Positions 466-17,707 of a DNA stretch of 36,986 nucleotides are shown in pieces. The notes beneath the pieces were generated by a model. The model saw only the letters and a list, made by a program, of their open reading frames with translations. It ran no database searches and was not told the DNA's origin. A program made the position numbers and the translations under genes. The stretch's first letter is position 1. Every line of letters starts with the position of its first letter. This stretch comes from a virus. Location of the stretch: the IMG/VR virus record IMGVR_UViG_3300041809_000519, positions 1-36,986 of that record; one strand, written 5' to 3'.

Positions 466-1530
466 ATGCCAGAAAACAGAATTGTTCTTGTTGGGCAAGC
501 CACGATTGGAAAAGAGCTCGAAAAGATGAAGGGGCAGATCGAGGCCGCGCTGCCCAGGCACATCACCCCCGAGCGCATGTCGCGGATCGCTCTGACCGCT
601 TTGCGCAAAACACCCAAACTCTACCAGACCACGCTCGAATCATTTTTCGGCGCGATCATCACCGCCTCGCAACTCGGACTCGAGCCCGGCGTGAATGGCC
701 AGTGCTACATCATTCCATACGGCCAGGAAGCAACCTTTGTCCCAGGCTGGCGCGGATGGATGGACCTGGTATCGCGCACGGGCCGCGCGAACGCCTGGAC
801 GGGCGCCGTCTATGAGCAGGATGAATTCGATTACGAGTACGGGACCAAACCGTTTATTCATCACAAGCCTGGCAAGTGGACAGGAAATCCGAAGGCGCTC
901 GAATTCGTTTACGCTGTCGGCAGCATCAACGGCATCGAGTCTCCGACAATCGAAGTGTGGCCCATCGAGCGCGTCTGGACACAGCGCGACAGAAACAATA
1001 AGTGCAAAAACAAGACCGATCACTATTCCTATGCGCATCCGGAAATGTACGCTCGCAAGCTGCCACTTCTTCAGGTGATCAAGTACCTGCCTTCCTCCGT
1101 TGAAATTCTCGCCGCATCCTCACTCGAAATTTCCGGATCGGAAGGCCGGCAGCACCTTACGATCGAGGGCTCGCTCGCGAAGAATTTCGACGGCGGACCG
1201 ACTGAAAAAGAGCTCGAGATCGAACGATTGATGAACCTGCTCAACTGGACGGAAGAAAAACGCGAGTCGGTGCGCGATAACTATCCAGGACGCACAGACG
1301 AGCTCCTGGAATATGTTCGAGAGCAAGCTGCTCCACTGAACGGCGGGAAGGCCGATGCCAGCAAGAAGGGTACTGACTCTGCGGCAAAGCGCCGCGGCGG
1401 ACGCAGTGATTCAAAAGCCGCACCCGAATCCGAAGCCGCCGAACAAGAGCACGATGCGAAACAAGAACAGCAGAGCAGCCAGCAACAGGACAGCGGCCGT
1501 CGACCGGCCCAGGGCTCTTTGGTTCTCTAA
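466..1530 (+). CDS. recT: RecT-like single-strand annealing protein
   Basis: The 354-residue product matches the RecT family, which anneals complementary single strands and promotes strand invasion in phage recombination. The core is recognisable at RISRIALTALRKTP-like, GQCYIIPYG and FVPGWRGWMDL segments, followed by the family's YAVGSINGIE and YARKLPLLQVIKYLP-like regions. The C-terminal part (about residue 290 on) is a low-complexity Lys/Ala/Gln/Glu tail. The ATG at 466 is chosen over the in-frame TTG at 427 because GGATGGAGA lies at the right distance and because the longer form would run into the previous gene. RecT normally works with a 5'-3' exonuclease, here most likely the PD-(D/E)XK nuclease encoded next. 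Confidence 0.9.
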   Translation: MPENRIVLVGQATIGKELEKMKGQIEAALPRHITPERMSRIALTALRKTPKLYQTTLESFFGAIITASQLGLEPGVNGQCYIIPYGQEATFVPGWRGWMDLVSRTGRANAWTGAVYEQDEFDYEYGTKPFIHHKPGKWTGNPKALEFVYAVGSINGIESPTIEVWPIERVWTQRDRNNKCKNKTDHYSYAHPEMYARKLPLLQVIKYLPSSVEILAASSLEISGSEGRQHLTIEGSLAKNFDGGPTEKELEIERLMNLLNWTEEKRESVRDNYPGRTDELLEYVREQAAPLNGGKADASKKGTDSAAKRRGGRSDSKAAPESEAAEQEHDAKQEQQSSQQQDSGRRPAQGSLVL

Positions 1531-1628
1531 CGGCATCATCGCGGGGTGGGCACCCTAACGCGATGACAAACTGTGCGGCTCGCATTCTACCGACCTCCAG
1601 GACGCGGGCCGCGCAGTGAAAGGATCAC
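1531..1628 (+). other. Short intergenic stretch between recT and the nuclease gene
   Basis: About 100 bases without a convincing gene. It ends in a TGAAAGGA ribosome-binding sequence in front of the ATG at 1629. I see no clear promoter hexamers and no terminator-like hairpin followed by a T-run. This is one of the longest gaps in an otherwise overlapping gene chain, so an internal promoter here is possible but not shown. Confidence 0.4.
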
Positions 1629-2936
1629 ATGGCAAAGAAGAAGTCTCCGCCGAGCGTCATCCCTCCATTGCATCAATCAACAGAAATGGTGATGGCGTGC
1701 CCCGTTTTTTACGTGGAAGCATTCATTAAAGGTAATCGCAAGCCAGGCAGCTTGGAGTCTGCGCGCGGCAGAGAGATTCACAAAGTCAGCGCAGCTTACC
1801 AATCATATTGCGCACAGAAACAGGTCAAGATGGACCTGGCCGCATTCGACGAGCTCGCGAAGGGCGCCGGGCCGGAAGCGGCGCGAATCCTATCTGGAAT
1901 CCGCGATAGCTACGAAGTGGATTACGCACACCTACTCGCGACCGAAGTTCCGATGAGCCTGGACGCCAAATTCCTGCCCACACTGATCTCCGACGAGCTC
2001 GACGGATCGGCGCTTGAAGAAGAGAGCACAAGGCCCAGCGAATACGAGGGTATCCCGGATGCAATCTATGCCTACGTCGACGAGAAGTGGATTTTGGTTC
2101 CAGACTGGAAATCGCATCCGCGGCCGTTTGATCCGGATGACACGCTTCAGGCTAAGATGTATTCGCTATTCATATTCCAGCACTTCCCATGGGCAGACAG
2201 AGTTATGTTCCGTCTGCACTTTGTCCGCTACCGGAAACTCTCGCGCGAAATCGAATTCCATCGCAAGCAAGTGCCGGCACTGATCGAAGCCGTGCGCGCC
2301 GCGCGTGAGCGTCAGAAGATGCTCCACGTGCTTTACGACAAGGGCGCGCAGATGGAAGCCATACCAGGAACGCATTGTCAGTATTGTCCGCTGCTCGCTA
2401 ACCGCACCTGTCCAATCGCGGAGTACAACGAGCAGATGCAATTGACGCCGGAAGAATGGGTCAAGTGGGCTCTCTGGCATTCGATGTTCAGCAGGATAAA
2501 CAACGCTCGCATGAAGGCGCGCGTCGAGGCCACTGGTCGGCCGATCCTGATCCGCGACTACAACGGTAAGGCATACAAGTACGGTCCGGAGGAGTCGGAG
2601 GGTACGAGTTACCCACTATTTCAAATGGATGCAGATGGAAGGAATCTCGGCAGAGACGATCAAGGCCGCATACTGATGCCGATCGTCGACCGGCTTCTCG
2701 ATTGGGTGCTCGACGAGGAAAACGGCGATCCGAAGGATGCTTTCTGGTATGGCAATCTGGAGATCGGCGCCACAGAACTGAATGGCAAGCTGAAGGCGAC
2801 CAAACGAGCCATCTTGCATCAGTCGATCGTCGATCTGGCAGTGCCGGTGCCGAAAGTTAAGTTCAAGGTATCGAAGCCGCTCGAAACCATAGAAGACGAG
2901 GAGCCGGAGGACGACGAGGAAAGCAATGGCCAATAA
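1629..2936 (+). CDS. PD-(D/E)XK nuclease, Cas4/RecB type with probable Fe-S cluster
   Basis: The 435-residue protein carries the RecB/Cas4 nuclease fold: a His in the GREIHKVSAAY helix (about residue 50), then GIPDAIYAYVDEKWILVPDWKSH supplying the catalytic Asp...Asp-x-Lys set, followed by a Gln-x3-Tyr helix (LQAKMYSL). Four cysteines are placed as in Cas4 and AddB: one near the N terminus (C24 in MACPVF) and three near GTHCQYCPLLANRTC, which in those families hold a 4Fe-4S cluster. The region after about residue 290 is an extension of unknown role with an acidic C terminus. It follows recT and probably supplies the resected ends for annealing. Start supported by TGAAAGGA upstream. Confidence 0.85.
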   Translation: MAKKKSPPSVIPPLHQSTEMVMACPVFYVEAFIKGNRKPGSLESARGREIHKVSAAYQSYCAQKQVKMDLAAFDELAKGAGPEAARILSGIRDSYEVDYAHLLATEVPMSLDAKFLPTLISDELDGSALEEESTRPSEYEGIPDAIYAYVDEKWILVPDWKSHPRPFDPDDTLQAKMYSLFIFQHFPWADRVMFRLHFVRYRKLSREIEFHRKQVPALIEAVRAARERQKMLHVLYDKGAQMEAIPGTHCQYCPLLANRTCPIAEYNEQMQLTPEEWVKWALWHSMFSRINNARMKARVEATGRPILIRDYNGKAYKYGPEESEGTSYPLFQMDADGRNLGRDDQGRILMPIVDRLLDWVLDEENGDPKDAFWYGNLEIGATELNGKLKATKRAILHQSIVDLAVPVPKVKFKVSKPLETIEDEEPEDDEESNGQ

Positions 2937-3219
2937 TCCTACGTGCGCTCATTTGCATCCTGTGCGCGATGGCGAATCGGGATATTCCTGCGCAGATTGT
3001 GGAGAGATTTTACAATTCAATTCTTCTGCGCCACGTTATCGCGAAGACGGTGACAATCACCTTTTCGACTCAGAGGAAGGCTGCTACTACGTGCGAGAGA
3101 AGCACGCTGTCCAAAAGGCAAACAACACCCTGGAAGACGTGGCGCGAATGGTAGAGATGAGCGCCGAAGCACGCTCGGCCTTGGCGGAACGCATTCGCCG
3201 AAAGAAGGAACGAGTCTGA
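2926..3219 (+). CDS. Small zinc-finger-like protein
   Basis: A 97-residue protein beginning with a Cys/His-rich segment (CAHLHP...CADCG) that could bind one zinc ion, followed by a charged C-terminal helix (ARSALAERIRRKKERV). It overlaps the nuclease gene by 11 bases and ends in a TGATG junction with the next gene, so it is almost certainly translated. The family was not recognised. A role as an accessory of the recombination genes is possible only from position. Confidence 0.7.
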   Translation: MANNPTCAHLHPVRDGESGYSCADCGEILQFNSSAPRYREDGDNHLFDSEEGCYYVREKHAVQKANNTLEDVARMVEMSAEARSALAERIRRKKERV

Positions 3220-3434
3220 TGCCGCTAATAGTGAAACGGCCGACAATGCGCACCGCTCCATGCGCAATCGAGTGCCGCTGCGATGGGAACCAGGTCTACG
3301 CAGCGATCGATATAAACAGGTGGCCGCACGAGGGCGGAATAGTTGGCTTCGGCGATACGCTCGCTGATGCTTTGCGCAACCTGGCCGACGAGATCGAGAA
3401 AGAAACTCAGGTCCAAGGAGAAGATGACGCATGA
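3219..3434 (+). CDS. Small protein with HicB-like C-terminal half
   Basis: A 71-residue protein. The second half (GFGDTLADALRNLADEIEKE) resembles the end of HicB-like/DUF1902-type small domains, in which a strand is followed by an alpha-helix starting 'T..DAL.NL'. No partner toxin (HicA) is adjacent, so this should not be called a toxin-antitoxin gene. Coupled by TGATG to the gene before and by ATGA to the gene after. Confidence 0.65.
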   Translation: MPLIVKRPTMRTAPCAIECRCDGNQVYAAIDINRWPHEGGIVGFGDTLADALRNLADEIEKETQVQGEDDA

Positions 3435-3748
3435 AGGTAATCGCAAAATGCAGCAGCCGAACCTTTTTAGTCGAAGCGACAGCCGAGGAGTTGGATGCTC
3501 TGGCCGGTCGCAAGATTGGAGACGACACTAATCGTTGGGACAACAACAGCCGCAATAACGCAGTTGGTCAAACCTTTAATATCTGCGAGGCGTGGAGGCG
3601 ACTGAATCGCGACACACGCCGCAAAAAAGAAGTCGCTCTCATCAAGCCGAATCTTCAACACATGATCAATGGCCTCGACATGTTGGAACCATTTGTCGAC
3701 GAGCCACCACTACCAGTTCAACCAGAAACCACCGGAGAAGGGACATGA
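3431..3748 (+). CDS. Hypothetical phage protein
   Basis: A 105-residue protein with no recognised family. The N-terminal part looks like a small beta-rich domain (MKVIAKCSSRTFLVEATAEEL, here split for reading as a strand pair plus helix), and the C terminus is Pro/Glu-rich and probably disordered. ATGA junctions on both sides place it in the translationally coupled chain. Confidence 0.65.
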   Translation: MKVIAKCSSRTFLVEATAEELDALAGRKIGDDTNRWDNNSRNNAVGQTFNICEAWRRLNRDTRRKKEVALIKPNLQHMINGLDMLEPFVDEPPLPVQPETTGEGT

Positions 3749-3954
3749 TCCGCAGCGTAAAACTTCTCTTTTGCGATAACGATCACGGCTGCGGCGACGT
3801 GACATTCCCGTGCATCGCCGATCTCGATTCTCAGGCATTCGTCGAGCCAAAGACCGTTGGGCAACTGCGCAAGGAAGCGCGGAAAGCTGGCTGGAGCCAC
3901 AAAAACGGAGCCGACTATTGCGAGATTTGCACGGAGGGAGAAAAACAGAAATGA
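3745..3954 (+). CDS. Small zinc-binding-like protein
   Basis: A 69-residue protein with cysteines at FCDNDHGCGDVTFPC and YCEIC, which would suit one treble-clef or ribbon-type zinc site. The segment KTVGQLRKEARKAGWSH is a motif I associate with short phage proteins that sit on the edge of replication modules, and the C-terminal CxxC is typical of them. Start ATG at 3745 overlaps the previous stop (ATGA). Confidence 0.7.
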   Translation: MIRSVKLLFCDNDHGCGDVTFPCIADLDSQAFVEPKTVGQLRKEARKAGWSHKNGADYCEICTEGEKQK

Positions 3955-4190
3955 GATTCACTCAGATTGCAGTTGCATCCGACACCGAAAACGGCGAGGC
4001 GCTTTACGCTCTCGGCGAAGATGGCCACGTTTACGAGCTCACATCGACTCATCATAGGGTCGGTTCGATATATCAAGGTAGAAAAGTCATCGCCTCTTTT
4101 TATTCGCCGTCATTTTGGCGCATGGTGGATCGACCATTTGAAGAGCCGGAAACCCCGGCCGAGTACTTGAAAGGACGCCTGGAGGAATGA
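3951..4190 (+). CDS. Hypothetical protein with beta-propeller-like short repeat
   Basis: A 79-residue protein. The N-terminal half (ALYALGEDGHVYEL) reads like a single beta-blade with a Gly-Asp turn, followed by a WRMVDRP segment. Proteins with the wording 'LYALGEDGxVY' are common small phage products of unknown role. It is linked by ATGA to the previous gene and to the intein-bearing ATPase that follows. Confidence 0.65.
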   Translation: MRFTQIAVASDTENGEALYALGEDGHVYELTSTHHRVGSIYQGRKVIASFYSPSFWRMVDRPFEEPETPAEYLKGRLEE

Positions 4191-7057
4191 GCAAACTCAA
4201 CATCGCTACGAATTTCAGTCTTCCCCAGGACACCGTTACCTCGACGCTTCTGATTTACGGCGGAAAAGGTATGGGGAAGCGTCTTGCTATCGACACGCCT
4301 CTTGCTACGCCATCCGGCTGGACAACGATGGGCGCCGTTCGCGTCGGCAATCTTCTGTTTGACGAGTGCGGACAGATATGCAAAGTCACAGCGATTTCGC
4401 CAATTGCTTTGGGAGAATCCTACGACGTGCATTTCTCTGACGGATCGGTGATTGTTGCTGATGGAGAACATCTTTGGACTACCGAAACGTATCGAGATCG
4501 GCGCCGCGGCAGGAACGGCGAAACGCGCACGACTCAAGAAATCGCCTCCACCTTGATCGTACTTCAGGGGCAACAGGTAGCAAACAATCACTCGATCAGG
4601 ACTACTCAACCACTGTTTCTACCGGAAAAGAAACTGCCGATCGATCCGTATGTGCTTGGCGTTTGGCTGGGCGACGGGTCAAGCGCGTGTTCGCAATTAA
4701 CTACCGCAGACGTGGAAATTGTCGCGAAACTGGAAGCTCTCGGATACCCAACGCGTTATCAACCCTCATCAGATACAGGAAAAGGCGCTGCAAGATCGTA
4801 CTCCATTCTCGGCATCAAGCCAATACTCCGTGAACTAGACATCCTGAATCAGAAACGAATTCCAATTGAATATCTGCGCGCCGCGATCGAGCAGAGGCTT
4901 TGTTTGCTGCAAGGTTTGATGGATACGGATGGTGGATGGTCAGAGACAGACGGCCACACGGCCGAATTCAGCAATACAAACAAGGAACTTTCGCGCGGGG
5001 TCTACGAACTGGTGTGTTCGCTGGGAATGAAAGCATCATGGAAACCACGTGCTGCAAAACTCAACGGTAAAGTTGTGGGCACAGACTACAGGGTACGATT
5101 CACGCCGACGCTTCCAGTTTTCTCCCTTTTAAGAAAAGCCAGGCATTGCGATTTCAACTGTGCGCAGCAGATGCGCCGCGTTCGCCGATACATTACAGCG
5201 GTAACTCCATGTGAATCCGTACTGATGCGTTGCATAAAGGTGGATTCGCCTAGCCAACTTTATCTAGCGGGAACGGCGATGATTCCCACTCACAATTCAA
5301 ATCTCGGTGCCGTCATCCTCGAAGAGATGTCGCGAGCCGGCAACCGCTGGGCTGCGCTCGATCCGATGGGTGTGCTCTACGGCATTCGCTACTCGGCAGA
5401 CGGCAAGGGCCGCGGCGTCGAGTGTCTGATCCTCGGCGGTCCGCACGGCGACATTCCTCTCGAGCCCACGGGCGGCGCCATTGTCGCAGACCTCGTTTCA
5501 GACAACGATGTGAACGTGATCATTGACATCTCGCGCAAGCCCAACGGTGAGATGTGGGGAGTCGGCGAGCGCATCAGGTTTGTGACCGATTACGGAAGAC
5601 GCCTGTTCGCGCGCCAAGGCAGTTTGGTGAACGGCAAGCGCCGCGAACCTCTCTTCCAATTGATCGACGAAGCCGCACGCTTTATGCCACAGATGGTGCG
5701 CTCCGGCGAAACGGACGTGGCGAAGTGTCTGAGCGTGTGGGCAACGATTGTCGAAGAGGGCAGGAACATCTGCCTGGGCGTTGGCATCCTCACTCAGCGA
5801 TCGGCACGCATCAGCAAAGACGTGGCTGAGCTCGCAGACATCATGCTGGCTTTCCGAACAGTCGGACCAAATTCGATCGCAGCGATCATGGACTGGCTGG
5901 GCGAGCACGCGCCAAAGCAAGAGATCAATCGTATGATCTCGACGGTGCGATCACTGCCGGTGGGCAGTGCTTTGGCTGTCTCTCCTGGCTGGCCGAAGTT
6001 TGAAGGCGTTGTATGCATCCGGCCGCGACAGACATTTGACTCGAGCGCTACTCCGAAGGCAGGAGAGCGCAAGCGCAAGCTGTCGGGTGCCGGTGCCAGG
6101 CCAGACCTCGACAAGTACGCCTCGCTGATGCGGGAGACAATCGAGCGCGCGAAGACCGAAGACCCGAAGGAGCTCCGGAAGAAGATCAGTGAACTTGAGA
6201 CCGAAGTGAAGCGGGCGAAGATGGCGAAGATGACCCAAGCGGCGGCGCCGACCATTTCGAAGCGCGATCTCAAGCCCGACCCTGAGACACTTGAGCGAAT
6301 CAGACAGCAACTCATCGACGAGATATCGACAGCGAGCCATCAGACGATCGGACTATTTTTCGCCAAGAAACTGCGGGAGTTGGGAATGCAGATTGAGAAT
6401 GCAGCCAACTCTCTAGAGGATCGCGAAAAGTGGCAAATTACCAAAATCGGGTCCAAAGTCAACAAATCGGTATCCGCTCTCCGGATGGTCGAAAATTCCG
6501 CCCCATCCCCGCGTCCTTTGCCAGCCCCTAGCCCGCGACGCGATGCGGAGCATCATTCCCCCGCCTCCAGAACGCCCGAGCGCTCTACGGCCATTTTTGA
6601 GGGTTCTACCGCGCTTCCAAAGGGAGAAAAGGCGGTCCTGGCAGTCCTAGCCCAGCACGGCCCCTCGAAGCGGCTTCAAATCTCCGTTTTTACCGGATTC
6701 GCCCGGAGCACCCGAGATACCTATCTTCAAAGGTTGACCGGCAAAGGATTCGTCGAGACGAGCGGCGATTCAGCTTCAATCACCGAATCTGGACTTCAGG
6801 CGCTTGGACCCTTTGAACCTTTGCCGGTTGGCACCGAACTTCGTGAATGGTGGTTGCGTCAACTGCCAAAAGGAGAGGCTGCAATTCTTGAATACTTTTG
6901 CCGATCCGGAGAACCAGTCACGGTGGATCGCGAGACGCTGACGGGGCAAACCGGCTTTGCCCGCAGTACTAGGGATACATACATTCAGCGGCTCACGCAG
7001 AAACTACTCGTGACATCGAACTCAACCGGCGTGATCGCCAGCGCAGATTTGTTTTAA
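4187..7057 (+). CDS. HerA/FtsK-type ATPase interrupted by an intein
   Basis: The precursor is 956 residues; removal of residues 32-370 leaves a 617-residue ATPase. The split Walker A is GGKGMGK followed, after the intein, by S371-N, giving an intact P-loop. Walker B is LFQLIDEA (D494, E495), followed by GVGILTQRSARIS, the arrangement seen in HerA/DUF87 ATPases that move along DNA or pump it. The domain lacks a long N-terminal barrel, unlike HerA itself. A helical linker (about 655-760) and a Pro-rich segment lead to two winged-helix-like repeats: FTGFARSTRDTYLQRL (about 835-850) and QTGFARSTRDTYIQRL (about 921-936). The ATPase probably acts on DNA as a ring, with the C-terminal repeats as DNA readers; its role in the phage cycle is not shown by the sequence. 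Confidence 0.85.
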   Translation: MSKLNIATNFSLPQDTVTSTLLIYGGKGMGKRLAIDTPLATPSGWTTMGAVRVGNLLFDECGQICKVTAISPIALGESYDVHFSDGSVIVADGEHLWTTETYRDRRRGRNGETRTTQEIASTLIVLQGQQVANNHSIRTTQPLFLPEKKLPIDPYVLGVWLGDGSSACSQLTTADVEIVAKLEALGYPTRYQPSSDTGKGAARSYSILGIKPILRELDILNQKRIPIEYLRAAIEQRLCLLQGLMDTDGGWSETDGHTAEFSNTNKELSRGVYELVCSLGMKASWKPRAAKLNGKVVGTDYRVRFTPTLPVFSLLRKARHCDFNCAQQMRRVRRYITAVTPCESVLMRCIKVDSPSQLYLAGTAMIPTHNSNLGAVILEEMSRAGNRWAALDPMGVLYGIRYSADGKGRGVECLILGGPHGDIPLEPTGGAIVADLVSDNDVNVIIDISRKPNGEMWGVGERIRFVTDYGRRLFARQGSLVNGKRREPLFQLIDEAARFMPQMVRSGETDVAKCLSVWATIVEEGRNICLGVGILTQRSARISKDVAELADIMLAFRTVGPNSIAAIMDWLGEHAPKQEINRMISTVRSLPVGSALAVSPGWPKFEGVVCIRPRQTFDSSATPKAGERKRKLSGAGARPDLDKYASLMRETIERAKTEDPKELRKKISELETEVKRAKMAKMTQAAAPTISKRDLKPDPETLERIRQQLIDEISTASHQTIGLFFAKKLRELGMQIENAANSLEDREKWQITKIGSKVNKSVSALRMVENSAPSPRPLPAPSPRRDAEHHSPASRTPERSTAIFEGSTALPKGEKAVLAVLAQHGPSKRLQISVFTGFARSTRDTYLQRLTGKGFVETSGDSASITESGLQALGPFEPLPVGTELREWWLRQLPKGEAAILEYFCRSGEPVTVDRETLTGQTGFARSTRDTYIQRLTQKLLVTSNSTGVIASADLF
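4280..5296 (+). mobile_element. Class 3 intein with LAGLIDADG homing endonuclease
   Basis: The 339-residue insertion runs from R32 to N370 of the precursor. Block A reads RLAIDTPLATPSGWTTMG, with Arg where most inteins have Cys or Ser. Block B has ADGEHLW (W97), block F has MRCIKVDSPSQLYLAG (C349), and block G has PTHN followed by Ser (T368, H369, N370, S371). The W, C and T are the signature of class 3 inteins, in which the block F cysteine, not residue 1, attacks the N-terminal splice junction. Two LAGLIDADG motifs, YVLGVWLGDGS (155-165) and LLQGLMDTDGGW (240-251), show a complete dodecapeptide homing endonuclease. The insertion point is between Lys and Ser of the Walker A motif, so an unspliced precursor should be inactive. 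Confidence 0.92.
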
Positions 7058-7432: not shown

Positions 7433-7597
7433 ATGCAGGTTACTCTCGAAATCACGGGCAAAGAATTGACGCTACTCTATCTCGCGACCGGCAACGAGGA
7501 CGCCGGCAGATTAGTCCTCGACGCAGCACGCGAGGCGGCGAAGCGCGAGCCAAAGAAAGTGCGGAAAACTCGCGCTCGCATCCGGAAGGAGGACTGA
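7433..7597 (+). CDS. Very short basic protein (54 residues)
   Basis: ATG at 7433 opens a 54-codon frame ending in TGA at 7595-7597, sharing its last base with the ATG of the methyltransferase-like gene (TGATG). The start MQVTLEITGKELTLLYLATG and the Lys/Arg-rich end (KREPKKVRKTRARIRKED) suggest a small beta-hairpin followed by a basic helix. Support comes from the exact fit between two genes and the coupling at the 3' end. Family not recognised. Confidence 0.6.
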   Translation: MQVTLEITGKELTLLYLATGNEDAGRLVLDAAREAAKREPKKVRKTRARIRKED

Positions 7598-8205
7598 TGC
7601 AGCCGATCGACTACATCACGAGAGCGCGCGTGCCGGCGACCCTAGAGCCGCAAAAGTTTGGCCCATGGACGATTATTCGCGCGGATATTCGAGAGTCAAT
7701 TCCCATTTTCGTCTCCTGGGTTGGATTCGAGACCATGACTATGCTTTGTCGATACACGACTGCGACGATGCACAAAGAGCACGGCGAGGTTGTCATGGAG
7801 GATTCTCTTCGCGAGCTCCGGAGGCATCTTCCAATATGGCTGCACGCGCGCGGCCGCATTCTGGTCACCGGGCTCGGACTCGGCTGCGTTGTGCGCGGTT
7901 TGCTGGCATCGCCAGACGTCGAACACATCACCGTGATCGAGATCGATGAGCGCATCATCCGCGTGGTCGGAAAGGAATTCGAGCGCAACGATCGGGTTCG
8001 AATGATTCACGGCGACGCTTTGACGGTCAAATTGGAAGACAAATTTGATTTTGCTTGGCACGACATCTGGACCGAAGGCAACGAGCACCTGCAGGTTCTG
8101 CACGTGAGGTTGATTAAACGCTTTCACCCGCGGTGCCAGATGCAGGGCGCATGGCTGTTGCCCAGGATGTTCAAGCGGAAAGCGCCCGAGTGGATGATCG
8201 GCTGA
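7597..8205 (+). CDS. SAM-dependent methyltransferase-like protein (spermidine synthase type fold)
   Basis: The 202-residue protein shows a class I Rossmann methyltransferase core: ILVTGLGLGCVVRGLL (motif I, about residues 88-103), VEHITVIEIDERII with the acidic residue that would hold the ribose of SAM, and VRMIHGDAL. The wording is closest to spermidine synthase-type proteins, which use the same fold but not always methylate. No DNA-methyltransferase motif such as DPPY or NPPY is present; the spot after the last core strand reads FAWHDIW. The target is unknown: a small molecule, protein or host factor is as likely as DNA. Confidence 0.75.
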   Translation: MQPIDYITRARVPATLEPQKFGPWTIIRADIRESIPIFVSWVGFETMTMLCRYTTATMHKEHGEVVMEDSLRELRRHLPIWLHARGRILVTGLGLGCVVRGLLASPDVEHITVIEIDERIIRVVGKEFERNDRVRMIHGDALTVKLEDKFDFAWHDIWTEGNEHLQVLHVRLIKRFHPRCQMQGAWLLPRMFKRKAPEWMIG

Positions 8206-10125: not shown

Positions 10126-12021
10126 ATGCATCTCGACAATCTCCGCATTCAGAACATCCGCAATATCTCTGACGCCACGCTGGGCATGAAAGGTGCCAAG
10201 CTGGTGGTCATCAAAGGCAAGAATCACGAAGGCAAAACCAGCGTTGCGCAGTCGATCAGCCTCTTGTTCTGCCCATCAACCGATGGCCTCGATCCGCTCG
10301 GCCGCGGATTTGCCATCAAGATCAAGCGCGATCAACCGAAGGGGATCATAACCGGAGACATCACCGGAACAACCCACACCGTTCGCCGCACGGTCACACT
10401 CAATCGGACGCAAACCGGCCGCGACCCGAAGATGGTATGCCTCGACGATGAGGACTGGATTCCACTACCATTCGGAAAGTTTTTGCAAGACAATCAGATG
10501 GCGATCATGGTCGCGCTCAATACGGACCATTTTCTTTTTGAACTCAATGAGGCTGATCAGAAGGCGCTGCTCTCGGCCCAGGTTCTACCGGCCACACACA
10601 CTTTTCCGCCCGACAAGATCACATTGGTTAATCGGTATCTTGGCGAAGGCGCCATTGACTTCAGCGGCGATCCACTGAGAGTTATCGAGAAAGCATACAA
10701 GAAACTTTTCGATGAACGAACGATCGCCAATCGACAGGTGCGTGACTATGTGATCCCTGATCCCGTGGAGAAACCAGCCAACGCCGGATCACTGGCCGAC
10801 CTTGAGAAGTCCCTGAGAGAAGTACGAGCTCAAGAGATGCAGCTTGAGGCCGACCAGCAAAAGCAGACACGCCGGTTATCCGAAGCCAATGCGAAGCGCG
10901 CGCGTCTCGACGAGAGAATCAAGACTGTCCGCGACGATCTACGTGGGCTTGATGAAAAGTTGAATGCTGCCGTGGCGTACATCCTTTCAGATGCCAAGCA
11001 TAAGGAGATGACGGCGCTCTCTGCGAAGAGCAAGACGCTCGCAACGCTTACTGAGAAGCATCGCAACCTCACCGCAGATATCGAGGCAAAGGGCAAAGCG
11101 ATAGCCAGGCTCAATGACGTACTGGAATTGGGCAAGGCGTGCCCTACCTGCGGACAGGCGATCGACGAAACTGCAATAGTTGGGATCATCAACCAGGAAT
11201 TCGAAGACAAAACGAAAATGAAACGGGACGACGACGCTGTCTGGCAAGAGATGAAGAGCCTCGGCGACATCGACGGCGCCACGACCGCTCTTTTCAAACA
11301 TGACCAGGCGCTGCAAGAGAAAGCGCGACTCGAGGGAATGATCGCCGAAAAGAATCGCTTGCTCACAAGCACAAGGGAGGAGCTTGGAAAACTTCCCACA
11401 GCGCCGAAGGGCGACGATGAATACGGGCCGGCAATCACCGAAGCAAGAAGAAAGATCGACGAACTTCAACTTCAGATACGCCCGATGATCGCGGCCGAGG
11501 AGCGGGTGAAAGAGATCGCCGAGAAAAAGAAGGCACTGGAAAAGCTGCAAACGAAGGCCAAAGACCTGGATGACCTGGTCAAATACTTTGACAAAGACGG
11601 GATCAAAGCGACCTTGATCGCGGAGCACATCGGCGCATTTACGAAGCAATTGAATATAGTGCTTGCGGAGTGGGGATATTCCTGCGCATTCAACATCGAT
11701 CCGTATGAATTTATTGTCACCGACACCATGGGCATAGCTTCGCCTGTCAAAGAGCTCTCCGGATCGGAGCGGCTGATGTTCACCATGGCGATGCAGTGCG
11801 CCGTAAGCGCCGCCTGTGGCTTCAAGATCATAGTTTGCGATCGCATCGACACGTTTCTTCCGGCAGAGAGAGCAAACGTCGGAAACTGTCTTTGGAAGAT
11901 GCTCGATCAAAAGATTCTCGACCAGGTGTTTTTGCTGATCTCAGATGAATCCACCAATGCATCGACCATGGCTGGCACCATGTACTTCGGCGTCGAGAAG
12001 GGCAACGTGAAGCAACTGTGA
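10126..12021 (+). CDS. Rad50/SbcC-like SMC-type ATPase
   Basis: The 631-residue product has the head-coil-hook-coil-head layout of Rad50/SbcC: Walker A GKNHEGKTS (31-39), a first coiled coil (about 222-335), a zinc hook CPTCGQ (C339, C342), a second coiled coil (about 355-485), the ABC signature LSGSE (544-548), and a Walker B KIIVCDRID (567-575). These proteins tether and process DNA ends, usually with an Mre11/SbcD nuclease; none is in the window, and the Cas4-like nuclease may be the partner. The coils are much shorter than in cellular Rad50, as is usual for phage versions. Odd point: the residue after the Walker B Asp, normally the catalytic Glu, is Arg (R573). Confidence 0.88.
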   Translation: MHLDNLRIQNIRNISDATLGMKGAKLVVIKGKNHEGKTSVAQSISLLFCPSTDGLDPLGRGFAIKIKRDQPKGIITGDITGTTHTVRRTVTLNRTQTGRDPKMVCLDDEDWIPLPFGKFLQDNQMAIMVALNTDHFLFELNEADQKALLSAQVLPATHTFPPDKITLVNRYLGEGAIDFSGDPLRVIEKAYKKLFDERTIANRQVRDYVIPDPVEKPANAGSLADLEKSLREVRAQEMQLEADQQKQTRRLSEANAKRARLDERIKTVRDDLRGLDEKLNAAVAYILSDAKHKEMTALSAKSKTLATLTEKHRNLTADIEAKGKAIARLNDVLELGKACPTCGQAIDETAIVGIINQEFEDKTKMKRDDDAVWQEMKSLGDIDGATTALFKHDQALQEKARLEGMIAEKNRLLTSTREELGKLPTAPKGDDEYGPAITEARRKIDELQLQIRPMIAAEERVKEIAEKKKALEKLQTKAKDLDDLVKYFDKDGIKATLIAEHIGAFTKQLNIVLAEWGYSCAFNIDPYEFIVTDTMGIASPVKELSGSERLMFTMAMQCAVSAACGFKIIVCDRIDTFLPAERANVGNCLWKMLDQKILDQVFLLISDESTNASTMAGTMYFGVEKGNVKQL

Positions 12022-14796: not shown

Positions 14797-15354
14797 ATGC
14801 CCAGGACACACGTCGGTACCGGATCGCTCTTCTCGAAGGGAACGCATACGCGATTCCTCGCATGGACCCTTCAGCGTTACGGTAATCTATGCGATCGCAT
14901 GAAGAAGAAGGAGCTTCCCGATCTCCCATTCACGCTCGAACAATTCAGGGCCGACGTTCTCAGCGTTATGGGAGGCAAAGAAGATGGAGCCTTTATCTGC
15001 CGGTACTGTAACCGGCCGCTCGACCTCGACGAGATCGCCGTCGACCACGCTATGCCGCTGAGCCGCGGCGGTGGGATCGGACTCGACAATCTCGACTATC
15101 CATGCAAGGAAGACAATCAGCGCAAGGGCAGCATGGACCCGAACGAATATATGGGCTTATTGAAATACCTTGATACGATCCATCCCCTAGCCCGACAGGA
15201 TATACTTTCGAGGCTTCAAAAAGCAGTCACACTCGCAGCCGGAACCTGGCACAACGCTGCCGTCATCAACGAGCTCAAGAATACCGGCCAATGGCAAAAC
15301 GCTCTCAAAACACTGCGTCACCGGAAACAAGAAAAAGAACTCGGACCATTCTGA
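14797..15354 (+). CDS. HNH endonuclease
   Basis: The 185-residue protein has a CRYC zinc knuckle (about residues 68-71), then VDHAMPLSRGGGIGLDNLDY with the catalytic His of the HNH centre, and a second half-knuckle PCKEDNQRKGSM, the classic HNH layout (D-H-x-x-P...N-L...C-x2-C replaced here by a single Cys and Asn/Lys). The flanks are helical. Free-standing HNH proteins of this size act as nicking or homing enzymes, or as packaging partners next to terminases; no terminase is near. It starts immediately after the previous stop, with AAGGAAAA upstream. Confidence 0.85.
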   Translation: MPRTHVGTGSLFSKGTHTRFLAWTLQRYGNLCDRMKKKELPDLPFTLEQFRADVLSVMGGKEDGAFICRYCNRPLDLDEIAVDHAMPLSRGGGIGLDNLDYPCKEDNQRKGSMDPNEYMGLLKYLDTIHPLARQDILSRLQKAVTLAAGTWHNAAVINELKNTGQWQNALKTLRHRKQEKELGPF

Positions 15355-15977: not shown

Positions 15978-16313
15978 ATGGCAAAGTCGACCTATCACCA
16001 GCCGATCGGAGAGCCGCGCCCCAAGCGCGGCGATCTGATTCATACCAATGTTGGTGACCGGCGCGAGCGCACCTGGCTTGTCCTGCGCACTCAGATTCTC
16101 AAGAATCGCATCTGTGAGCCAATGGGCGGGATCATGGCCCAGCGGACTAAGATTTGGCGAGAGCGATGGTGGGCTCTCGAGCCAGAGATGCGCGTTGCTC
16201 TTTATCGAAGCGCGGAGCGCGCTGGCGGTCAATTGATGCACGAATCAGTACCATTTCCAGTGAAACGCAAGCCTACATTTGAGCAGCACATGAGGAGAAA
16301 AACGTCCAGATGA
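15978..16313 (+). CDS. Hypothetical basic protein
   Basis: A 111-residue protein rich in Arg and Trp: RERTWLVLRTQILKNRIC, then IMAQRTKIWRERWWALEPEM and KRKPTFEQHMRRKTSR. Its ATG follows the previous stop without a gap, and its own stop overlaps the dnaB start (ATGA). A DNA contact or helicase accessory role is conceivable from charge and position, nothing more. Confidence 0.65.
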   Translation: MAKSTYHQPIGEPRPKRGDLIHTNVGDRRERTWLVLRTQILKNRICEPMGGIMAQRTKIWRERWWALEPEMRVALYRSAERAGGQLMHESVPFPVKRKPTFEQHMRRKTSR

Positions 16314-17707
16314 GTACGGTTCCCGATCTAACCCTGGATGCAGGGCTCCCAGCCAACATCGACGCAGAGAAAACGATCCTCGGGGCAATTCTCCTCGACA
16401 ATGAAGCTCACGTCAAAGCGGCCGAAATTCTCAAGCCTGACGATTTCTCGCTGGACTCTCATCGCCGTATTTTCCTGCGCATGTCGGAGCTCGCAGACGC
16501 TTACCGCGCGATCGATATCATCACACTCAAAGATCATTTGCAAATGCATAAGGAAGTCGAGGCAGTTGGCGGCGTGGCCTACTTGGCCTCTCTCACTGAG
16601 GGCTTGCCGCGCCGTCCTGTCATTGAAGATTACATCCGCATCGTAAAAGATAAATCCCTGGCTAGGCGTCTGATGGGAATTTGTTCGGCGACGATCGCGC
16701 GACTAGCCGACCAGGCGGAGCCGGCAATGAACCATGCCATTTCGCTTGGCATCGAAGTGGAAACGGCTCTTAGCTCCACGATCGAATCGGACTTTCAATC
16801 CCCGGAGCAGTTTTTTGCGGCCGAGTATCCAACCGCAGAATCGATGATTGAGAAGCGCTCCAGGTCGCACGGGATCGACACCGGCTATCGCGCATTCGAC
16901 GAGATGACCAGCGGCCTCCAGAGAGGCGAACTGATGATCATCGCAGCCAGGCCCAGCATGGGCAAGACAGCGCTCGCCATGAATATCGCAGAACATGTAT
17001 CCGTGAATTGCGAAGGCCGCGTTATCGTAAATTCGATGGAGATGAGCAGGGAATCTCTTCTCGGCCGCGCCATCTGCTCGCGCGCTCGAGTACCATTCAA
17101 AAAATATAAGAACGGGACACTCTCAGAGGATGCGAAGCAAATGCAAGAATTCACCGGAGCCTACCAGGACTTCCGGCGATCGCAACTTCTTATCGACGAT
17201 CAATGCAGGACGGCGATCAAGATGTCAGCGCACTGGCGCGCGCTAAAACAAAGATTCGATTTCGATCTTGGGATCGTCGATTACCTTACTCTATTTCAGC
17301 ACGAAGAGAATTCGCGCCGGTACCGCGATACCCGTCAACTTGTGGCGACAGATTGCCTCACTCTAAAGCTGCTGGCTAAGGAGCTCAACATTCCAGTGAT
17401 AGCCCTTTGCCAACTAGGACGAGAAGTGACAAAGAGGACCGACAAGCGACCCAACCTGGCCGATCTCAGAGAGTCAGGGAATATCGAAGAAATTGCCGAC
17501 GTGATCTCTTTCGTTCATCGCGAAGCCTACTACAATAACGACGCCGACATGAGCGCCGCGGAGCGCACCCGTACTGAATGGATTATCGGAAAGCAGCGGA
17601 ATGGCCCCGTGGGAACGGTGGACCTAAACTGGCTTGCCTACTGCCTCCGCTTCGAGGAGCCATTTGACGCAGCCGATCTTCAGCGGCAGGAATACATCAA
17701 TTGGTGA
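16310..17707 (+). CDS. dnaB: Replicative DNA helicase DnaB
   Basis: The 465-residue protein is a full-length DnaB-family hexameric helicase. The N-terminal domain (AEKTILGAILLDN...DDFSLDSHRRIFLRM) is followed by the RecA-like motor: Walker A ARPSMGKTAL with K219 and T220, Walker B FDLGIVDYL with D324, the H4 motif ADLRESGNIEEIADV (about 384-398), and RNGPVGTVDLNW near the end. It unwinds DNA at the fork in the 5'-3' direction. No helicase loader or primase is in the window, so these may come from the host. The insertion sites used by inteins in other DnaB proteins (Walker A) are uninterrupted here. Last gene of the early block. Confidence 0.95.
   Translation: MSTVPDLTLDAGLPANIDAEKTILGAILLDNEAHVKAAEILKPDDFSLDSHRRIFLRMSELADAYRAIDIITLKDHLQMHKEVEAVGGVAYLASLTEGLPRRPVIEDYIRIVKDKSLARRLMGICSATIARLADQAEPAMNHAISLGIEVETALSSTIESDFQSPEQFFAAEYPTAESMIEKRSRSHGIDTGYRAFDEMTSGLQRGELMIIAARPSMGKTALAMNIAEHVSVNCEGRVIVNSMEMSRESLLGRAICSRARVPFKKYKNGTLSEDAKQMQEFTGAYQDFRRSQLLIDDQCRTAIKMSAHWRALKQRFDFDLGIVDYLTLFQHEENSRRYRDTRQLVATDCLTLKLLAKELNIPVIALCQLGREVTKRTDKRPNLADLRESGNIEEIADVISFVHREAYYNNDADMSAAERTRTEWIIGKQRNGPVGTVDLNWLAYCLRFEEPFDAADLQRQEYINW

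Follow-up and report, generated by a model that had tools for sequence, protein, structure and literature searches.

A class 3 intein with a LAGLIDADG endonuclease in the P-loop of a HerA-like helicase from a contractile-tailed phage

In class 3 inteins, a cysteine at block F position 4 (Cys F:4) attacks the N-terminal junction to give a block F branched thioester; then come transfer onto residue +1, cyclisation of Asn and an acyl shift (PMC3196547, PMC5222942). The Lys/Thr junction of the P-loop is a classic intein insertion site (PMC5050341). We analysed a virus record of 36,986 bases (the window), which derives from a contractile-tailed phage and almost certainly encodes a class 3 intein of full length, complete with a LAGLIDADG homing endonuclease and placed at the Walker A Lys/Ser of a HerA-like helicase. 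The mini-inteins Msm DnaBi1 and MchDnaB1 (6bs8, 6rix) share with it the set of Trp B:12, Cys F:4 and Thr G:5 (WCT), a P-loop junction of the form Lys/x...THN/Ser and the splicing-domain fold, but they lack an endonuclease, reside in DnaB and are only about 50% identical to it in the splicing blocks. Among phage class 3 inteins (30-42% identity to the window intein), those in DnaB of Brevibacterium phage Rousseau (42%), in the Bixzunavirus exonuclease and in mycobacteriophage TerL are homologous over the full length and carry both LAGLIDADG and WCT, whereas their hosts differ. PI-SceI, the VMA1 intein, has the same two-domain architecture of splicing and LAGLIDADG parts but is a class 1 intein with Cys1 in another host.

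Intein boundaries, catalytic residues and fold

The precursor is a 956-residue protein read from a single open frame across the insert on the plus strand (4187-7057). Alignment with uninterrupted homologues delimits an N-extein (4187-4279) that covers residues 1-31 of the HerA-like ATPase, up to GGKGMGK with the invariant Lys of Walker A. The intein, 339 residues from R1 to N339 (4280-5296; precursor residues 32-370), is followed by the C-extein (5297-7057), which starts with S+1, the Walker A Ser, and holds the remainder of the ATPase and the stop codon. Walker A is split exactly at Lys/Ser (GKGMGK/R...THN/S), and removal of the intein is predicted to yield a 617-residue product in which Walker A, GGKGMGKS, is intact.

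With the boundary set by the uninterrupted homologues, residue 1 of the intein is Arg and not the Cys, Ser or Thr of class 1, as befits class 3. The sequence-only reading had singled out Arg1 together with W97, C349 and T368 of the precursor, and all are present, the latter three being W66, C318 and T337 in intein numbering. Block B contains H64-L65-W66 (4469-4477; His B:10 and Trp B:12), C318 (5231-5233) occupies Cys F:4 and is the presumed initiating nucleophile under the published mechanism (PMC3196547, PMC5222942), and block G ends in T337-H338-N339 (5288-5296; Thr G:5, penultimate His and terminal Asn), followed by Ser at +1. When the window intein is aligned with 63 relatives, H64, W66, C318, T337, H338 and N339 show no variation, and every residue needed for class 3 splicing is present. 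By analogy with the characterised members, Cys318 would attack the Lys-Arg1 peptide bond, the N-extein would be transferred to Ser+1, and Asn339 would cyclise as the exteins join into the 617-residue ATPase, which would bind ATP only once spliced. Identity to the nearest intein is only about 46%, too low for activity to be deduced from a tested relative.

The best PDB matches in phmmer searches were the class 3 mycobacterial DnaB inteins 6bs8 (E 1.5e-24) and 6rix (E 5.9e-23), and tblastn found matches to the window intein in 723 phage records, full-length in hundreds, with class checked for part of them only. Together with the uninterrupted host homologues, these class 3 DnaB matches and full-length phage matches rule out chance. 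The Pfam Intein_splicing profile (PF14890) gave no match to the window intein, and since it fails to detect this intein, the absence of PF14890 carries no weight. An AlphaFold2 model of the intein built from 64 sequences (pLDDT 96.4, pTM 0.93) matched PI-SceI across its full length in Foldseek (E 1.9e-19); the splicing domain matched the class 3 structures 6bs8 (E 1e-9, target TM 0.82) and 6rix, and the endonuclease part matched I-DmoI.

The HerA-like host and its phage context

We assigned the host protein by profile search; a model folded from three homologues was useless (pLDDT 46). When compared with solved structures, a 17-row profile of the ATPase retrieved HerA helicases, with 9x1l as the best match (E 3.7e-15), followed by 8wiv, 4d2i and 8xau. 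Pfam detects DUF87 in seven of the 17 host-family members and HerA_C in two, and the NCBIfam model helicase_HerA matches the window precursor (E 5.5e-5). This profile kinship with solved HerA argues that the host belongs to the HerA/FtsK-superfamily ATPases, in keeping with the HerA-type host proposed earlier.

Relatives of the C-extein were found in viral contigs and in one phage record. The uninterrupted set comprises 18 HerA-like relatives, namely 17 viral contigs that an alignment-based scan retrieved (three of them also in the earlier search) and phage MW202482, and the K/S or K/T junction is uninterrupted in all 18, which bears out insertion into the P-loop. Among the 19 HerA-like members examined, only the window protein carries the intein. 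Over the ATPase domain, the nearest relative (L005) and the window protein in its spliced form share 74% identity. In two relatives (L184 and L185), the P-loops are uninterrupted and the frames are broken or short further on. In L184, the frame of the HerA-like homologue runs on from the P-loop region and enters an HNH_3 endonuclease domain (3001-3312), which suggests a second mobile element in the HerA-like gene.

Within the window, genes for a RecT-like annealing protein (427-1530), a PD-(D/E)XK exonuclease (1629-2936), the HerA-like protein and an SbcC-like protein (10126-12021) are clustered between 427 and 12021; a methyltransferase gene lies at 7597-8205 and dnaB at 16310-17707, and the minus strand carries tail sheath, baseplate and head genes. 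The cluster is likely a phage recombination block, resembling the pairings of HerA with nuclease and Rad50, and the HerA-like protein would act in phage recombination or repair, although a packaging role is still conceivable. An HNH/endonuclease VII-like gene (14797-15354) lies close to dnaB. The label of PHROG 2666, 'terminase large subunit', was not followed for the host family because HerA helicases match the profile, the gene lies in a block with RecT, exonuclease, SbcC and DnaB, and the PHROG match spans just some 90 residues. Even so, no terminase was found among the 20 other, larger window proteins compared with PHROGs, in a record that is a fragment, which leaves room for a packaging role.

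Endonuclease, homing and possible regulation

Both LAGLIDADG motifs are intact, as had been noted from the sequence: LGVWLGDG at residues 126-133 (4655-4678), with D132, and LLQGLMDTDG at residues 209-218 (4904-4933), with D217, the latter within the Pfam Hom_end match. In the 64-sequence alignment, D215 is invariant, D132 and D217 reach a conservation of at least 90%, and the conserved residues also include K192 and K286. The two helices with their acidic residues, the Pfam matches to Hom_end (E 2.1e-6) and LAGLIDADG_3 (E 8.5e-5) and the predicted fold, which resembles PI-SceI and I-DmoI, identify the insert as a LAGLIDADG element. From the intact motifs, we infer that the element can home: the endonuclease would cut the uninterrupted P-loop DNA of herA, and repair would copy the element in. 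The GC content of the intein (0.518; third positions 0.52) compared with that of the C-extein (0.581; third positions 0.66) is weakly suggestive of arrival from elsewhere, the argument being weak because GC of 1017-bp segments fluctuates along the window (intein rank 0.056).

Alternatively, the intein might splice but have an inactive endonuclease, in which case the element would pass only vertically within this lineage. No interrupted sister HerA gene, and thus no spread within the host family, was seen among the 18 relatives, and in relatives the target DNA shows differences at 8 to 13 of its 36 positions; however, the conservation of D132, D217, K192 and K286 speaks for a working enzyme, and the difference in third-position GC fits acquisition from elsewhere, so we regard an inactive endonuclease as unlikely.

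A class 3 intein in a P-loop could also splice conditionally, in response to redox, metal or DNA state, and serve as a switch on the helicase rather than only as a parasite. Its position should prevent ATP binding before excision, and DnaBi1, a class 3 intein of M. smegmatis, has been investigated as a stress-responsive element (PMC6195587), but the window sequence shows no evidence of regulation, and a needed switch is unlikely because the element is missing from all 18 relatives. We think such a switch improbable, and highly improbable the fuller proposal that conditional splicing of this class 3 intein turns on a HerA helicase used in phage recombination, in a host subfamily for which no class 3 intein had been described.

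Class 3 kinship and the breadth of the family

The reading that we prefer, a class 3 intein of full length that carries a homing endonuclease, is borne out by its relationships. The closest full-length inteins are class 3 (identity up to 46-47%, E 4e-98), and comparison of the splicing domain with ordinary class 1 inteins gave no significant match. A tree, proposed in the sequence-only reading as a check on the class, places the window intein among class 3: in a splicing-domain tree of 68 inteins that include seven with Cys1, it lies inside the class 3 part, adjoining L023, and a 97/97 branch sets it apart from six of the seven Cys1 inteins; in a 29-row tree, a 99/99 branch sets it apart from five. 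Forcing it beside class 1 lowers the log-likelihood by 11.95 with an AU p of 0.125, so that on this short alignment (148 columns of the splicing domain) a class 1 grouping is not formally rejected. That the element is instead a class 1 intein which lost Cys1 and is now dead, leaving the helicase non-functional, is scarcely credible: Arg at residue 1, the AU value and the existence of a dead class 3 relative, Arth_1007 (PMC3196547), would accommodate it, but the class 3 residues are all intact, the best full-length matches are class 3 inteins at 46% with no significant match to an ordinary class 1 splicing domain, and the trees split the window from class 1. Inteins with Arg1 are scattered over the large tree, and a single origin is not rejected (p 0.307).

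In Lactococcus phage AM4 (L187; NC_049856.1, 901-1959), an intein that combines Cys1 with Cys F:4 and Thr G:5 but lacks Trp B:12 nests within the class 3 clade (94/82 with L189) on a long branch; it is possibly a hybrid or a reversion, with a bearing on the relationship between class 1 and class 3. Its host is annotated as 'terminase', and Pfam gives an AAA_24 protein.

Class 3 inteins had been described from the window sequence as rare, which does not hold: stretches related to the window intein number at least 580 in viral contigs and 281 in genomic ones, with class checked for part only, and WCT is present in all 162 relatives extracted from both sources, a count that describes the family and is not an independent estimate, the relatives having been found by similarity to the query. 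In these 162 relatives, the +1 residue is Ser (95) or Thr (67), and Lys precedes the intein in 151, as Gly-Lys in 142. Residue 1 varies among A, L, P, G, R, M, Q, E, D and S; Ala accounts for 108 and Arg for five, making Arg1 unusual, not unique. In line with the earlier remark on terminase-type hosts, terminases prevail in the Pfam assignments of 108 C-exteins, alongside DnaB, AAA_25, dCTP deaminase, RecA and one portal protein; hosts of the HerA/FtsK superfamily also already exist. Two inteins share one terminase (L003, ORF 2471-6478): a class 1 intein with Cys1 and, on its 3' side, one of class 3.

Three plasmid hosts have WCT inteins in the P-loop: TraD of pKAZ5 (L201; VGTTGSGK/A...THN/T), an FtsK-like (FtsK/SpoIIIE) protein of Rhodococcus pRDE01 (L205; GRTGSGK/M...THN/S) and a VirB4-like AAA_10 protein of Bifidobacterium longum p1 (L203; GDTGSGK/A...THN/T). 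These inteins resemble that of the window in class, P-loop position and host ATPase superfamily, but their hosts serve plasmid conjugation or translocation and intein identity is 28-45%. Outside the P-loop, WCT inteins occur in a plasmid FtsK/SpoIIIE protein (L202) and, after IIDPK, in a plasmid VirB4-like AAA_10 protein (L200). On a plasmid of Streptomyces sp. NBC_01454 (L204), one ATPase (ORF 1158-4723) has WCT inteins in two different P-loops, after EAGSGK and STGTGK. Within the HerA/FtsK superfamily, IcmO falls into the type IV coupling-protein branch. Its class 3 intein in Burkholderia has been published and splices (PMC5222942); the Bvi IcmO intein shares its class with that of the window and has a coupling-protein ATPase as host, but it is a 142-residue mini-intein with Cys+1 at a junction (SLGF/.../CITFA) other than the P-loop K/S. 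Among the papers searched, no relevant one linked class 3 inteins to FtsK, VirB4 or HerA hosts. With TraD, FtsK/SpoIIIE, VirB4-like and IcmO examples at hand, a HerA/FtsK-type host is not new as had been suggested, and only a narrower novelty may remain, that of a phage HerA-like helicase as class 3 host.

The window intein is a sound example of a common kind and no surprise; class 3 inteins gain from it one host subfamily, the phage HerA-like helicase. The 162 relatives portray class 3 as a large group centred on the P-loop K/S or K/T junction with a variable residue 1, in keeping with the published understanding that this residue plays no catalytic role in class 3, and they offer many new sequences for splicing tools.
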